DNA of 7,921 bases from a bacterium (GTDB lineage Bacteria; CSSED10-310; JAJRTK01): assembly GCA_024278345.1 (NCBI GenBank), contig JAJRTK010000104.1:1-7921 (forward strand), in the 5' to 3' direction. The position numbers were made by a program, and so were the translations under genes. Positions 1,772-7,040 of the stretch are shown here, one piece after another. The notes beneath the pieces were generated by a model, which was not told where the DNA came from, made no database searches, and saw nothing but the letters and a program-made list of their open reading frames with translations. Each line of letters begins with the position of its first letter. Positions within the stretch are counted from its first letter, which is position 1.

Positions 1772-2431
1772 ATGAAGGTGAGTATCGATGGGTCACCGGC
1801 CTTTGCGCATCTGCAGGTCGATTTGGAGCCCGGGGAAAGCATTGTCGCCGAGTCCGATGCCATGGCGAGCATGGCTGCGGATCTCGACATGGAAGCCAGT
1901 TTCAATGGAGGTTTTTTCTCTGCGCTGGCCAAGAAATTTTTGGGGGGTGAATCCCTTTTCGTCAATACCTTTACCAACAATAGGTCCGGTGTGCGGCGGT
2001 TGACGCTGACCCAGGGCACGCCAGGGGAGATTCGGGAGGTTCGTCTGAGCGGGCGCAGCTTATGTCTTCAGCCAGGGGCCTTTATCGCGGCGACGCCCGG
2101 CGTGAAATTGGGGACGAAGTGGGCGGGTTTCGCCTCGTTTATCGGGCGCGAGGGCCTGTTCAAACTACAAGTTTCCGGGACCGGGACGCTGTGGTACGGT
2201 GCGTACGGGTCTCTGGTGGAGAAGCAGATCGAGGGCGAATACATCGTTGATACAGGCCATTTGGTCGCTTACGATCCGGGGATGAAGCTCAAGGTGGGAT
2301 TGGCCGGCGGAATTTTTTCGAGCTTTTTTGGCGGAGAAGGACTTGTGACCCGAGTGATCGGGCGCGGCAAGATCGTTCTCCAAAGCCGGAGTCTCAGCGG
2401 GTTGGCCGGTTGGCTGAATCCAAGACTGTAG
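1772..2431 (+). CDS. AIM24/TIGR00266-family protein, paralogue A
   Basis: The 219-residue protein has no signal peptide or transmembrane helix. It belongs to the AIM24/TIGR00266 family, all-beta proteins of unknown biochemical role; the yeast namesake is a mitochondrial inner-membrane protein linked to cristae organisation. Family landmarks in order: ESDAMASM (27-34), LGGESLFVNTF (57-67), the W-x-G-F stretch (117-120), SGTGTLWYGAYG (135-146), VDTGHLVAY (159-167) and FFGGEGLV (185-192). The usual GEG of the middle repeat is GREG here (125-128). It is the most diverged of the three tandem copies, and 255 bases separate it from paralogue B, so it may have its own promoter. Family assignment is firm; function is not known. 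Confidence 0.88.
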   Translation: MKVSIDGSPAFAHLQVDLEPGESIVAESDAMASMAADLDMEASFNGGFFSALAKKFLGGESLFVNTFTNNRSGVRRLTLTQGTPGEIREVRLSGRSLCLQPGAFIAATPGVKLGTKWAGFASFIGREGLFKLQVSGTGTLWYGAYGSLVEKQIEGEYIVDTGHLVAYDPGMKLKVGLAGGIFSSFFGGEGLVTRVIGRGKIVLQSRSLSGLAGWLNPRL

Positions 2432-2686: not shown

Positions 2687-3364
2687 ATGGAAGTCGAACT
2701 TGTTCACAGACCCGGTGCTTCGGCGGCCAAGGTGAGCTTGGGGCCAAGGGAAACCTGCACCGCGGAGGCCGGTGCCATGATCGCCATGAGCGGCGATATG
2801 GGGATTGAGACCACGACTCACAAGAAGGGGTCTGGCGGCATCTTCAAGGCGATGAAGCGTATGATCGCCGGAGAGTCGTTTTTCTTGAACCACTTCACTG
2901 CCGGGCCAACTGGCGGCGAGCTTTGGTTGGCGACGACGTTGCCGGGCGACATGATGGCCTACGATCTCCGCGGCGAGAATCTCATCGTTCAAGGGGGTTC
3001 TTATGTCTGCTCGGAGGCGGGAGTCGAGATCGATCTTGGCTGGCAAGGCCTCAAATCCCTGTTTTCCGGCGAGGGGGTTTTTTGGCTCCATCTCAAGGGG
3101 AATGGCAAAGCGGTCATCAATTCGTTCGGAGCGATTTATCCCGTGGAGGTCGATGGAGAAACCATTGTCGATACTGGGCATATCGTCGCCTTCAACGAGA
3201 CGCTGGACTTCGACATTACCAAGGCGGGCGCGAGCTGGATCTCATCTTTTCTGGGCGGAGAAGGCCTCGTTTGCAAGTTCCGGGGCCGGGGTACTGTTTG
3301 GTGCCAGTCCCACAACGCGCCAGGTTTCGGCAAGGCACTGGGGCCGCTTCTCAGATCCCGCTGA
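2687..3364 (+). CDS. AIM24/TIGR00266-family protein, paralogue B
   Basis: The 225-residue, apparently soluble protein is a second AIM24/TIGR00266 member. Landmarks: EAGAMIAM (27-34), AGESFFLNHF (61-70), LPGDMMAYDL (85-94), QGGSYVCS (102-109), FSGEGVFWLHLKGNGKAVINSFGAI (126-150), VDTGHIVAF (161-169) and LGGEGLVCKFRG (189-200). It keeps the family consensus better than paralogue A. The start is set by GAAGGA at 2673-2678, 8 bases before the ATG. The stop codon TGA (3362-3364) shares its last base with the ribosome binding site of paralogue C, and the two genes are 13 bases apart, so B and C are one transcription and translation unit. An archaeal family member of known structure is a beta-sandwich protein reported as a trimer (from memory), so mixed assemblies with A and C are conceivable. 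Function unknown. Confidence 0.92.
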   Translation: MEVELVHRPGASAAKVSLGPRETCTAEAGAMIAMSGDMGIETTTHKKGSGGIFKAMKRMIAGESFFLNHFTAGPTGGELWLATTLPGDMMAYDLRGENLIVQGGSYVCSEAGVEIDLGWQGLKSLFSGEGVFWLHLKGNGKAVINSFGAIYPVEVDGETIVDTGHIVAFNETLDFDITKAGASWISSFLGGEGLVCKFRGRGTVWCQSHNAPGFGKALGPLLRSR

Positions 3365-3377
3365 AGGAGAGTAACGG

Positions 3378-4064
3378 ATGAATCAGCAGACTTCGGATTA
3401 CGGATATTCCATTGATTGTCAGCCCGATTACGCTTTCCTCACGGTCCGGATTCCGGCGGGGAAGATGCTCAAAGTGGAGGCCTCCGCCATGGCTTCCATG
3501 GATGTGACCCTCAAGATGAAGACCAAGCTCAAGGGCGGCTTTGGGCGGTTTCTGACGGGGGAGTCTCTCTTCATGAACGAGTTCACGGCGGAAGGCGGCC
3601 CCGGGGAGATCAAGATCGCGCCGGGTTCGCCGGGCGACATGGATCACGTCTACCTCGAGGGAAATGACGTCATCTACTTGCAGAACTCGGCCTATGTGGC
3701 CAGCGGACCCGGTGTCCAGGTGGAGAGCAAGTGGCAGGGCTTTACGAAGGGTTTCTTTTCAGGTGAGTCCCTCTTCCTGATCCGCTGTTCCGGGAGGGGC
3801 GATTTGTGGTTCAATACCTATGGGGCGATGATCCGCATCGATGTGGATGGGGAGTATGTCGTGGACACGGGGTTCATCGTGGCTTTCACGGAGGGTCTTG
3901 ATTACCGTGTTTCCAGAGTTGGAGGCTACAAATCGCTCTTCTTGTCCGGTGAAGGGTTTGTTTGCCGGTTTCGTGGGCAGGGAAGGCTTTGGATCCAGAC
4001 GCGGCAGCTCCCGGCGTTCCGGCAGTGGATTTGGCGTTACCGGCCCGCGAAGAGCAGCAACTAG
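3378..4064 (+). CDS. AIM24/TIGR00266-family protein, paralogue C
   Basis: The 228-residue protein is the third AIM24/TIGR00266 member in the row, with no membrane segment or signal peptide. Landmarks: EASAMASM (34-41), LTGESLFMNEF (59-69), SPGDMDHVYL (84-93), FSGESLFLIRCSGRGDLWFN (127-146), VVDTGFIVAF (161-170), LSGEGFVCRFRG (189-200) and an aromatic C-terminal stretch QWIWRY (216-221). The conserved His of VDTGH, kept in A and B, is Phe here. The ATG at 3378 follows AAGGAGAG (3364-3371) at good distance. N-terminally it is about nine residues longer than A. After its stop come 102 bases without a clear terminator before the pseudokinase gene, so read-through into that gene is plausible. Family certain, role unknown. 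Confidence 0.92.
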   Translation: MNQQTSDYGYSIDCQPDYAFLTVRIPAGKMLKVEASAMASMDVTLKMKTKLKGGFGRFLTGESLFMNEFTAEGGPGEIKIAPGSPGDMDHVYLEGNDVIYLQNSAYVASGPGVQVESKWQGFTKGFFSGESLFLIRCSGRGDLWFNTYGAMIRIDVDGEYVVDTGFIVAFTEGLDYRVSRVGGYKSLFLSGEGFVCRFRGQGRLWIQTRQLPAFRQWIWRYRPAKSSN

Positions 4065-4166: not shown

Positions 4167-7040
4167 ATGGAGTTTGCACCTGGTGAACGGTTGATGCACT
4201 ACGAGATTGTTCATCGGTTGGGCGGCGGTCGGATCGTGGACGTTTACCGGGCACGGGATCTCCAACTAGAACGGGAAGTCGTGCTGAAGTTTCTTTCCGA
4301 AACTCTAGCCAGGAACCCCCGTTCCGTGGCGCGTTTTACTGCCCGCGCCAAGGCTTTGGCCGCCTTGAATCACCCGGACTTCGCCGCCATTTATGGCGTC
4401 GAAGAGAGGGACGGACTCCATTTTGTCGTCATGGAGTTCGTGGAGGGCGAGCCGATCTCGGAGCTCATCCCAGCCACGGGACTTGAGCTTCAACCCTTTT
4501 CTCGCTGGGCCATGGCCTTGGCTCAGGCGATGTCTTTTGCCCACAAGAGTGGTTTGACCCACGGCGCTTTGGAGTTGGCGGATATCTTCCTCGACAAGTA
4601 CGGGCATCTCAAAATCATCGGTTTCGATTTCCTCCGTCACGGAAAGGAGGGCGTGGGAGAGGGAGGCTCTTTTCCGGGGGGGCCGGAGCCGCTGGAGATG
4701 ACCCAGGCTCTCCATGAGCTCCAAGGCGTCGGTCCAGATGGAATGGTGGCGGCGTTGGCCAGCATGCCGGAGGGAGTCCGCGGGAAGCCCTTGGAGCCAG
4801 AGGCGGATATCTCCTCTTTGGGCGGCATCCTTTACGAGATGGTTACGGGTCGTCCCCCTTGCTCTGCCAAGGAATCCAATCGTTCGACACTTTCGATTCT
4901 GGTGAAAAGACTGGGACGGTCCAAAGATGGCGGAGCCCCTTTGCCTAGGGGGCTTGAGAGGATCTTTAGGGGTTGTCTGACCAAGAGTCCGAAGGCGAGG
5001 TTCCAGAGCATGGAGGAACTCTCAGGAGCTTTGGAACTGTTTCAGCGGGAGTTGTTCTCTTCGGAGGGCAACTTTTCCGAGAATGGCGTCGTTCGTCGGC
5101 GGTTGCCTCCGGGAAGATCAATCGCGGCAGCCATTGTGGCCGTGGGGATTCTAGTCATCGCAGGCTGCGTGCTCTGGTGCTGGACCGAGGAGTCGGACCC
5201 AAGCAGAAATATGAAACCCGTAGTGACGTGGCCGGGAAGGGAATGGAATTGCCACGTTTCACCGGATGCACGGTGGATTTCCTTTATTTCCGAAAGCGAT
5301 GGCGGCGAAGGAGTTTGGCTTTGCCCCGTGGGTGGCGGCGAGTTCCGCCAGGTCTTTGCCCGGGACCAGGCTTCTCTTTTGGGCCATTTGTGGTCACCCG
5401 ATGGCAATCGCCTGCTGATTCTGTTCAAGCGCTTTGGAAAAAAAGTCCTGGAGATTGTTCCTGCGTTTGGTGGAACAAGGGGGAGGGAGGTGATTTCGGA
5501 AAAGCTCGATCTCCAAGGGATGGTTTTGGTTCGCTGGGCCAAGGGGGGCATCTATTTGGAGCGTTCGGGTCAAGGGTTGTTTCGCTACCAGTTGGATTCT
5601 GGAAGGCTCCGGCTGGTCTTGCCATCTTCCGATTCGGAAGGTGAACGCGTAGACTTTGATGTTCGGCCTGACGAGAAAGAGCTCGCTTATTGCACTTTCG
5701 AAGGGGGTCGGAGTATTCTTTGGGTTTCCGGGATGGATGGAGCACGGCCTCGAAAGCTCACGAATGACGGTGCATCAGATTTTCATCCGCGGTGGCGCAG
5801 AGGGCGAAAGTGGGAGCTTCTCTTCTCTTCAAACCGAGGAGGCCAGTACGATCTTTGGTCCGTCAAGACTGAGAGGGGAGTACCAATACGCCTTGCCTCC
5901 GGTGCGGGTATCGAGAAGGCGGGAGTCGTTTCTTCCGACGGTTCATTGGTGGCGTTTCAAAGAGTCGTGGAGAGGGCCGATATCTATCTTTTCGATCCGG
6001 CAACCGACCGCGGCCACCTTTTGACGGGGAACACCTTGCAGGAGCTTTGGCCCAGTTGTTCTCGCCGCAATCGCCTTGTAGCGTTCCAGCGTGGGGGAGT
6101 TGTCAGAAGCCATTTGATGGTGTACGGGGCGAATATCTTCTTGGGAAGGCTCGACGGGCACGGGCTTCAAGATACAAGGCCCGTGGTGGTGAAAGGGGGG
6201 CGGCCAAGCTTGTCTTCGGAAGGGCGCTTTCTGGCTTTTGTCCAGAAGGGAGCCGAATCACTGGAACTTTGGAATCTGGATCTCGCTACCGAACGGAGAT
6301 GGCGGTTGACGGAGCGCTTTGTGCCCCATGGGCTTGAGAAGCCGATCTTGGCCTGGAGCAGGCAAAATATGGCTTGGAGCTCTTCAAGGGAGGAGTTCTA
6401 CTTCGTATCGGAGACAAAGGGCGGTGGCCAGGAAATCCAGCGGCTCGATTGTGACAAGAAGAAACGTCCCGAGCGTCTGCTGGAGGTACCCAAAGGGAAG
6501 GCGGTGGGCGACCTTCTACCCTCGTCAGATGGACGGCGCCTTGCCTATGTGCGGTCAGCGGAGATCGACGGGAGCGAAGTACTTTGCGTTCGCGATCTGG
6601 GGTCGGGCCTGGAAACACCGTTATGGAGGTTCAAGGGAGCACCGGGGACCGCGGCTTACTGGCCAGGGTGGCTGGAAGATGGCGCTGGCTTGATCGCCCT
6701 TCGGGGACGTGAGGCTCACGGCGGTGGGGGACGTCTCGAAGTGTTGCGGATAGGGTTGGACGGCGAAGTCAATGGCCTCGGTGAGATTGCCCATGGTTTC
6801 GGCGCCACGGCCCGCCTGGTACCCGGGGCGGAGAGCCTCATTCTGGTGGGAGCCGAGAGGGCGGGTGGCCCTAGAAACCTCTACGAGTTTCGGTTGTCTG
6901 ATGGGACTCTCCAGCGCTTGACGGAAAACAGTATCGCCGGAATCAGCTTTTCGGGGATTGAGGTTTTGCCCGATGGCCGCTTTCTCTATTCCAGGCAGGA
7001 GACCCGGGGGGATATCTTCGGGATCTGGTTTCACGATTGA
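4167..7040 (+). CDS. Membrane pseudokinase with TolB/PD40-type beta-propeller
   Basis: The 957-residue protein has three parts. Residues 10 to about 295 form a bacterial Ser/Thr kinase fold (HYEIVHRLGGG start, N-lobe Lys K41 in VVLKFL, HPDFAAIYG, MEFVEGEP, D214 and SLGGILYEMVTGRPP). Residues 318-339 are one transmembrane helix after a basic stretch. The remaining 600 residues carry TolB/PD40-like repeats (SPDARWISF 365-373, WSPDGNRLLILF 409-420, SSNRGGQYDLW 554-564, a final LPDGRFLYS), probably outside the cytoplasm. The catalytic residues are missing: the alpha-C Glu is R60, HRD is H132-G-A134, the catalytic-loop Lys and Asn are E136 and D139, DFG is G152-F-D154, and the glycine-loop pattern is G-G-G-R-I-V. 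Phosphotransfer is therefore unlikely; a signalling or scaffold role is inferred. GGAGAG at 4156-4161 and the family-like start (MEFAPGERL) favour the ATG at 4167 over a GTG at 4140. It follows the AIM24 genes by 102 bases on the same strand. The frame is intact throughout, so it is not a decayed gene. Confidence 0.9.
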   Translation: MEFAPGERLMHYEIVHRLGGGRIVDVYRARDLQLEREVVLKFLSETLARNPRSVARFTARAKALAALNHPDFAAIYGVEERDGLHFVVMEFVEGEPISELIPATGLELQPFSRWAMALAQAMSFAHKSGLTHGALELADIFLDKYGHLKIIGFDFLRHGKEGVGEGGSFPGGPEPLEMTQALHELQGVGPDGMVAALASMPEGVRGKPLEPEADISSLGGILYEMVTGRPPCSAKESNRSTLSILVKRLGRSKDGGAPLPRGLERIFRGCLTKSPKARFQSMEELSGALELFQRELFSSEGNFSENGVVRRRLPPGRSIAAAIVAVGILVIAGCVLWCWTEESDPSRNMKPVVTWPGREWNCHVSPDARWISFISESDGGEGVWLCPVGGGEFRQVFARDQASLLGHLWSPDGNRLLILFKRFGKKVLEIVPAFGGTRGREVISEKLDLQGMVLVRWAKGGIYLERSGQGLFRYQLDSGRLRLVLPSSDSEGERVDFDVRPDEKELAYCTFEGGRSILWVSGMDGARPRKLTNDGASDFHPRWRRGRKWELLFSSNRGGQYDLWSVKTERGVPIRLASGAGIEKAGVVSSDGSLVAFQRVVERADIYLFDPATDRGHLLTGNTLQELWPSCSRRNRLVAFQRGGVVRSHLMVYGANIFLGRLDGHGLQDTRPVVVKGGRPSLSSEGRFLAFVQKGAESLELWNLDLATERRWRLTERFVPHGLEKPILAWSRQNMAWSSSREEFYFVSETKGGGQEIQRLDCDKKKRPERLLEVPKGKAVGDLLPSSDGRRLAYVRSAEIDGSEVLCVRDLGSGLETPLWRFKGAPGTAAYWPGWLEDGAGLIALRGREAHGGGGRLEVLRIGLDGEVNGLGEIAHGFGATARLVPGAESLILVGAERAGGPRNLYEFRLSDGTLQRLTENSIAGISFSGIEVLPDGRFLYSRQETRGDIFGIWFHD

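Follow-up and report, generated by a model that had tools for sequence, protein, structure and literature searches.

P0001, an uninterrupted reading frame of 957 codons (4167..7040, + strand) in the window (the whole stretch of DNA that was analysed, 7,921 nucleotides, which is the entire contig C22 of a 6.06 Mb genome in 550 contigs), quite probably encodes a single-pass membrane receptor with a true pseudokinase domain, which would have originated by duplication of a receptor of the C57 type and would act by protein contact. Judged by its sequence, it is a real and intact bacterial membrane pseudokinase that belongs to an established, poorly studied category, and for which we infer a function.

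The complete protein of 957 residues, whose ATG at 4167 directly follows a GGAG-rich stretch recognised by eye, begins with a Hanks-type kinase fold (residues 12-283; 4200..5015, + strand) that matches the Pfam Pkinase profile with 74.5 bits over positions 1-256 of 263. The sole strong hydrophobic helix, a single transmembrane segment at residues ~317-340 (5115..5186, + strand; hydropathy 2.75), corresponds to a helix at 317-340 in the structure model; it is preceded by RRR and followed by acidic residues (EESD), an arrangement that fits a kinase located inside and a propeller located outside. The rest is a PD40/TolB-type beta-propeller region of ~600 residues (5211..7028, + strand), possibly forming two propellers, which was identified by Pfam (PD40, 39.9 bits), by NCBIfam (TolB propeller, 77 bits) and in the model. 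This order (N-terminal kinase, one transmembrane helix, C-terminal PD40 propeller) is that of a kinase-PD40 membrane receptor, and both an intact frame, open throughout from 4167 to 7040, and the fusion to a TolB/PD40-type propeller had been claimed by the original prediction and were found here. The G+C content at the three codon positions (0.63/0.44/0.67) is of the coding type, and the kinase part resembles the propeller part in this respect.

The claim that the kinase fold has been kept agrees with the predicted structure. An AlphaFold model of the kinase domain, made from 28 sequences, had a pLDDT of 84.2 and a pTM of 0.82 (the model of the full-length protein was modest, with 66.7 and 0.40), and the best solved fold among the matches listed was PknB from M. 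tuberculosis (1o6y; Z 27.4, rmsd 2.3 over 246 residues, 30% identity). The features of a Hanks-type (PknB-like) fold are present (H132, F153, the APE Glu, the alphaF Asp and the alphaI Arg), and the activation segment (163-179 and around) is predicted to be disordered or irregular. Known pseudokinase structures are absent from the 50 best structural matches listed, which proves nothing.

Residues were compared in a profile alignment of P0001 with 121 canonical domains, to which M. tuberculosis PknB was also aligned; this canonical set was picked by the presence of K, E, D, N and D, and those columns are, by construction, 100% conserved. P0001 departs from it by E60R, R133G, D134A, K136E, P137L, N139D, D152G and G154D, and a glycine-loop Gly has been lost as well (G22R). 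These changes replace the alphaC Glu (4344..4346, + strand; Glu in 121/121 canonical domains, which were chosen for it), turn the catalytic loop HRDLKPAN into HGALELAD (residues 132-139; 4560..4583, + strand) and DFG into GFD (residues 152-154; 4620..4628, + strand). On the other hand, the beta3 Lys K41 (codon AAG, 4287..4289, + strand) is retained, together with G19, G21, V26, H69, E90, H126, H132, F153, G219, R278 and the structural APE Pro/Glu (P201, E202) and alphaF Asp (D214), which lie within 4767..4808 (+ strand). P0001 keeps only one of eight phosphotransfer columns, compared with 25 of the 36 other columns conserved in at least 80% of the domains (Fisher p=0.005), a contrast that concerns what P0001 keeps, the eight columns being the analyst's own choice; its sister C57 retains 8/8. 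Misalignment is ruled out by the distance between the HRD-Asp and DFG-Asp positions, which is the canonical 18 residues. The possibility that a two-residue shift makes D154 (in DFL) the DFG Asp was weighed but discarded on this same spacing and because F153 is in phase.

All the substitutions originally reported (alphaC Glu to Arg, HRD to HGA, Lys to Glu, Asn to Asp, DFG to GFD) are thus present and in register with the 121 domains and PknB, and so is the retention of K41 and D214. The assertion that all catalytic residues had been lost has to be narrowed: phosphotransfer residues are selectively lost, but P0001 still has K41 as its beta3 Lys, and H132 and F153 of the spine are also in place. 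An active Ser/Thr kinase has the VAIK Lys, the HRD Asp and the DFG Asp, whereas in P0001 only the Lys is kept, the HRD Asp being Ala and the DFG Asp Gly; with two of three lost in a kinase fold, it falls within the sequence definition of a bacterial pseudokinase (at least one of the three lost). With K41 kept and with E136, D139 and D154 newly placed, the pocket may bind some nucleotide or metal. A more radical possibility is that of an atypical active enzyme, in which K41 and these relocated acidic residues would hold nucleotide-metal and catalyse either phosphotransfer or a different reaction, as in SelO (AMPylation) and SidJ (glutamylation), pseudokinase folds with other chemistry (PMC12599244). 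This is improbable, since the HRD-Asp, the DFG-Asp, the catalytic-loop Asn and the alphaC Glu have all been lost, the new acidic residues are without demonstrable family-level conservation, and SidJ reuses the ATP-/metal-binding Lys and the DFG-type Asp (PMC12599244), the latter being Gly in P0001.

No orthologue of P0001 was found in 60 genomes searched with the whole protein. Searches with the kinase domain in eight species of the phylum gave only kinases of at most 38% identity and the paralogue C57, a search of 386 genomes with the propeller again had C57 as its sole relative with an E-value of 1e-20 or less, and a peptide-pattern scan of GTDB-220 contigs returned distant kinases only. For this reason, a test of conserved loss and of dN/dS among orthologues was replaced by comparison with the sister paralogue C57, using relative rates, because P0001 and C57 are 31% identical and their synonymous sites are saturated. 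The nearest relatives (C57 and G001:C110) keep HRD and DFG. C57 (G000:C57:30784-33711; L065:6770-9748, - strand) is encoded in the same genome, not adjacent to P0001, and has the same kinase, transmembrane helix and PD40 propeller; the two proteins align co-linearly across 992 residues, with 37.6% identity between the kinases and 30.9% between the propellers. Unlike P0001, C57 retains HRDLKPAN, DFG and the alphaC Glu, and its Pkinase match is split in two pieces by a long activation-segment insert, which is not the case in P0001.

Another kinase-PD40 protein of this genome, C96 (L078:2376-5648, - strand), belongs to the kinase clade of P0001 (0.98) and, like it, lacks the DFG Asp (GCG) and has Asp for the catalytic-loop Asn, although it keeps the HRD-Asp and the alphaC Glu, has Arg for the beta3 Lys, has lost the glycine loop, and carries a propeller that falls outside the P0001+C57 group. 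In the propeller tree P0001 was joined with C57 (bootstrap 98), and the other two ways of pairing these proteins and C96 were rejected (AU p ~0.011); the kinase tree had the same branching order but was not significant. In both P0001 and C96 the DFG Asp became Gly and the Asn became Asp, and a common origin of these losses was examined; the propeller data rejected a pairing of P0001 with C96 (AU p=0.0115), although the kinase data did not (AU p=0.127). Sequence comparisons favour, without proving, a convergent origin of the losses in P0001 and C96.

Since its split from C57, the kinase domain of P0001 has evolved about twice as fast as that of its sister. Branch lengths for P0001 and C57 were 1.19 and 0.54 in the kinase, and 1.03 and 0.85 in the propeller; in a Tajima test of the kinase, P0001 had 54 unique changes and C57 28 (p=0.005), and across six outgroups the counts were 47-60 and 23-28, respectively, significant in all six (p from 0.013 to 0.0001). 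In the propeller, where the comparison is weaker because the outgroups are very distant, unique changes numbered 35 in P0001 and 40 in C57, and there was no difference with five of the six outgroups; P0001 had more with G032d (34 vs 18, p=0.036) and C57 tended to have more with G032b (30 in P0001 vs 47, p=0.07). Of three outgroups compared, two gave a significant contrast between kinase and propeller rates (p=0.0005 and 0.004), whereas G052 did not (p=0.29). Acceleration confined to the kinase, with equal rates in the propeller, speaks for a protein that is under constraint but no longer catalytic, and against a decaying gene. It is consistent with a protein that remains in use but has been freed from catalytic constraint, with which both relaxed constraint on the kinase domain and positive selection for a new role would be compatible. 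Together with the kinase model and a single transmembrane helix with a positive inner flank, it also bears out the initial claim of a receptor-like pseudokinase with a propeller under constraint.

If the gene were a receptor kinase at an early stage of decay, with catalysis gone through drift, the remainder due to follow and no selected role for the kinase domain, this would account for the faster kinase domain and for a lineage-specific singleton, and a MAG cannot reveal the population variation that bears on it. Nevertheless, this is rather unlikely: neutral drift at 0.05 substitutions per site would be expected to produce ~5 stops, and the 957 codons contain neither stop nor frameshift; the losses are selective for chemistry residues, codon composition is of the coding type in both parts, and the propeller has changed at the same rate as in active C57. 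An artefact of assembly or sequencing (a two-gene chimera or miscalled bases) deserves mention because the contig that carries P0001 measures 7.9 kb and the MAG is fragmented, but it is very improbable given that the eight in-frame substitutions are scattered and no frameshift accompanies them, that codon composition is uniform and that the domain order is identical to that of C57 along the whole length.

A plausible course of events for a membrane receptor with a true pseudokinase domain would start with the duplication of a kinase-TM-PD40 receptor, giving P0001 and C57, the latter still present in the same genome. After the split, the P0001 kinase would have lost the alphaC Glu, the HRD Arg and Asp, the loop Lys and Asn and the DFG Asp and Gly while retaining its fold, and its propeller would have stayed under constraint equal to that of its sister. 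The propeller would be an extracytoplasmic sensor, and the catalytically dead domain would work through protein contact, most likely by binding to an active kinase, either C57 or another of ~90, and tuning it. A plain scaffold role seems less likely than such tuning; modulation of an active kinase is considered the likeliest mode because the receptor from which P0001 derives was active and had the same type of sensor. The tuning of active relatives by paralogous pseudokinases is among the best-characterised pseudokinase modes (PMC8141879). Analogy with EGFR-HER3 suggests a bolder version, in which catalysis disappeared on at least two occasions among the kinase-PD40 receptors of this lineage (in P0001 and in C96) and the dead ones became ligand-gated regulators of active C57, but this appears doubtful. 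Against a PknB-like pairing counts that the Arg10 and Asp76 positions of PknB, which we take to be the pair of its back-to-back dimer, are His11 and Gly77 in P0001 when both are aligned.

P0001 is not alone in its genome. At least seven of the 96 complete kinase domains lack the HRD Asp or the DFG Asp (P0001, C96, C56, C321, C128, C218 and C181), not counting three K-to-R calls (L127, L135 and L137) excluded as possible misalignments; this is near the 10% rule of thumb for eukaryotes (PMC12599244). None of 43 kinases from other genomes, a sample picked by similarity to P0001, lacked the Lys, HRD Asp or DFG Asp. Further degenerate partial kinase domains occur in C9, C154 and C509. At L152:10273-13866, L153:1996-8001 and L151:3-3548, degenerate kinase domains are fused to an AAA_16 ATPase (a match below the curated cut-off in L152) and TPR, which recalls the CP1-type architecture (PMC12599244). 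L157:1-4398 (G000:C154) encodes a degenerate kinase-like domain with HGA for HRD and no Pfam kinase match, followed by TPR, a sigma-54 activator and a Fis-type HTH. Four kinase matches (G000:C306:8047-8808, C179, C57:17242 and C414) contain one in-frame stop each and are either broken genes or MAG errors.

Upstream of P0001, all on the + strand, lie an M48 peptidase gene (~296-1507; nearest to the BepA group, NCBIfam 119.6 bits against a cut-off of 570) and three tandem AIM24/TIGR00266 genes identified by Pfam and NCBIfam (1772..2431, 2687..3364 and 3378..4064), the only AIM24 genes of the genome; a 4HBT thioesterase gene lies downstream on the - strand. The third AIM24 copy ends 102 bp before P0001, and no terminator-like site was seen in between. 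The AIM24 triple recurs in G003:C111, from the same phylum, with no kinase among its neighbours, so the AIM24-kinase linkage is not conserved, and this neighbourhood yields no functional clue to P0001. A G+C-rich dispersed repeat of ~114-131 bp is found at 10-140 and ~1486-1600, its two copies flanking the M48 peptidase gene; 40 near-full copies (at least 92% identity) were scored in the genome among 476 first-look candidates, many of them at contig ends, and it probably explains the fragmented assembly.

Bacterial pseudokinases have been catalogued by sequence and hardly studied, and P0001 and active C57, with the same type of sensor in the same genome, constitute a matched pair for testing catalytic loss in a bacterial receptor, although the reach is small (a single gene from one uncultured lineage). 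The original description of such proteins as little described is correct in that they are hardly studied, but the category is established: at least seven bacterial families have been reviewed, in one of which a PQQ domain follows the pseudokinase, and the examples on record include proteins that carry TM segments or PQQ domains (PMC12599244). A literature search found no kinase-PD40 pseudokinases, and P0001 matches none of the reviewed family definitions compared (ActPs1, ActPs2/DYD, GLW and CP1). In the actinobacterial ActPs1 all three catalytic residues are substituted (PMC12599244), whereas P0001 keeps K41, and its PD40/TolB propeller also sets it apart. ActPs2/DYD is defined by Arg for the beta3 Lys together with either a DYD motif or Asn for the HRD Asp, where P0001 has Lys, HGA and GFD; the GLW family has GLW for HRD and LLLL/W at the beta3 Lys, where P0001 has HGA and VVLK; and CP1 is linked to COG3899 and has no TM segment, while P0001 has one, with PD40 as its only extra Pfam domain. 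The NCBIfam model for PASTA kinases matches P0001 far under its cut-off (146 vs 450 bits). PknB itself (1o6y, 1mru and 6b2p) shares the fold of P0001 but is catalytically competent in sequence. Like P0001, the pseudokinase domain of MviN (ActPs3) and EssB/YukC are membrane-associated non-catalytic kinase folds, and P0001 may resemble them in acting by contact, although they have lost the VAIK Lys and have shortened activation segments and other partner domains.
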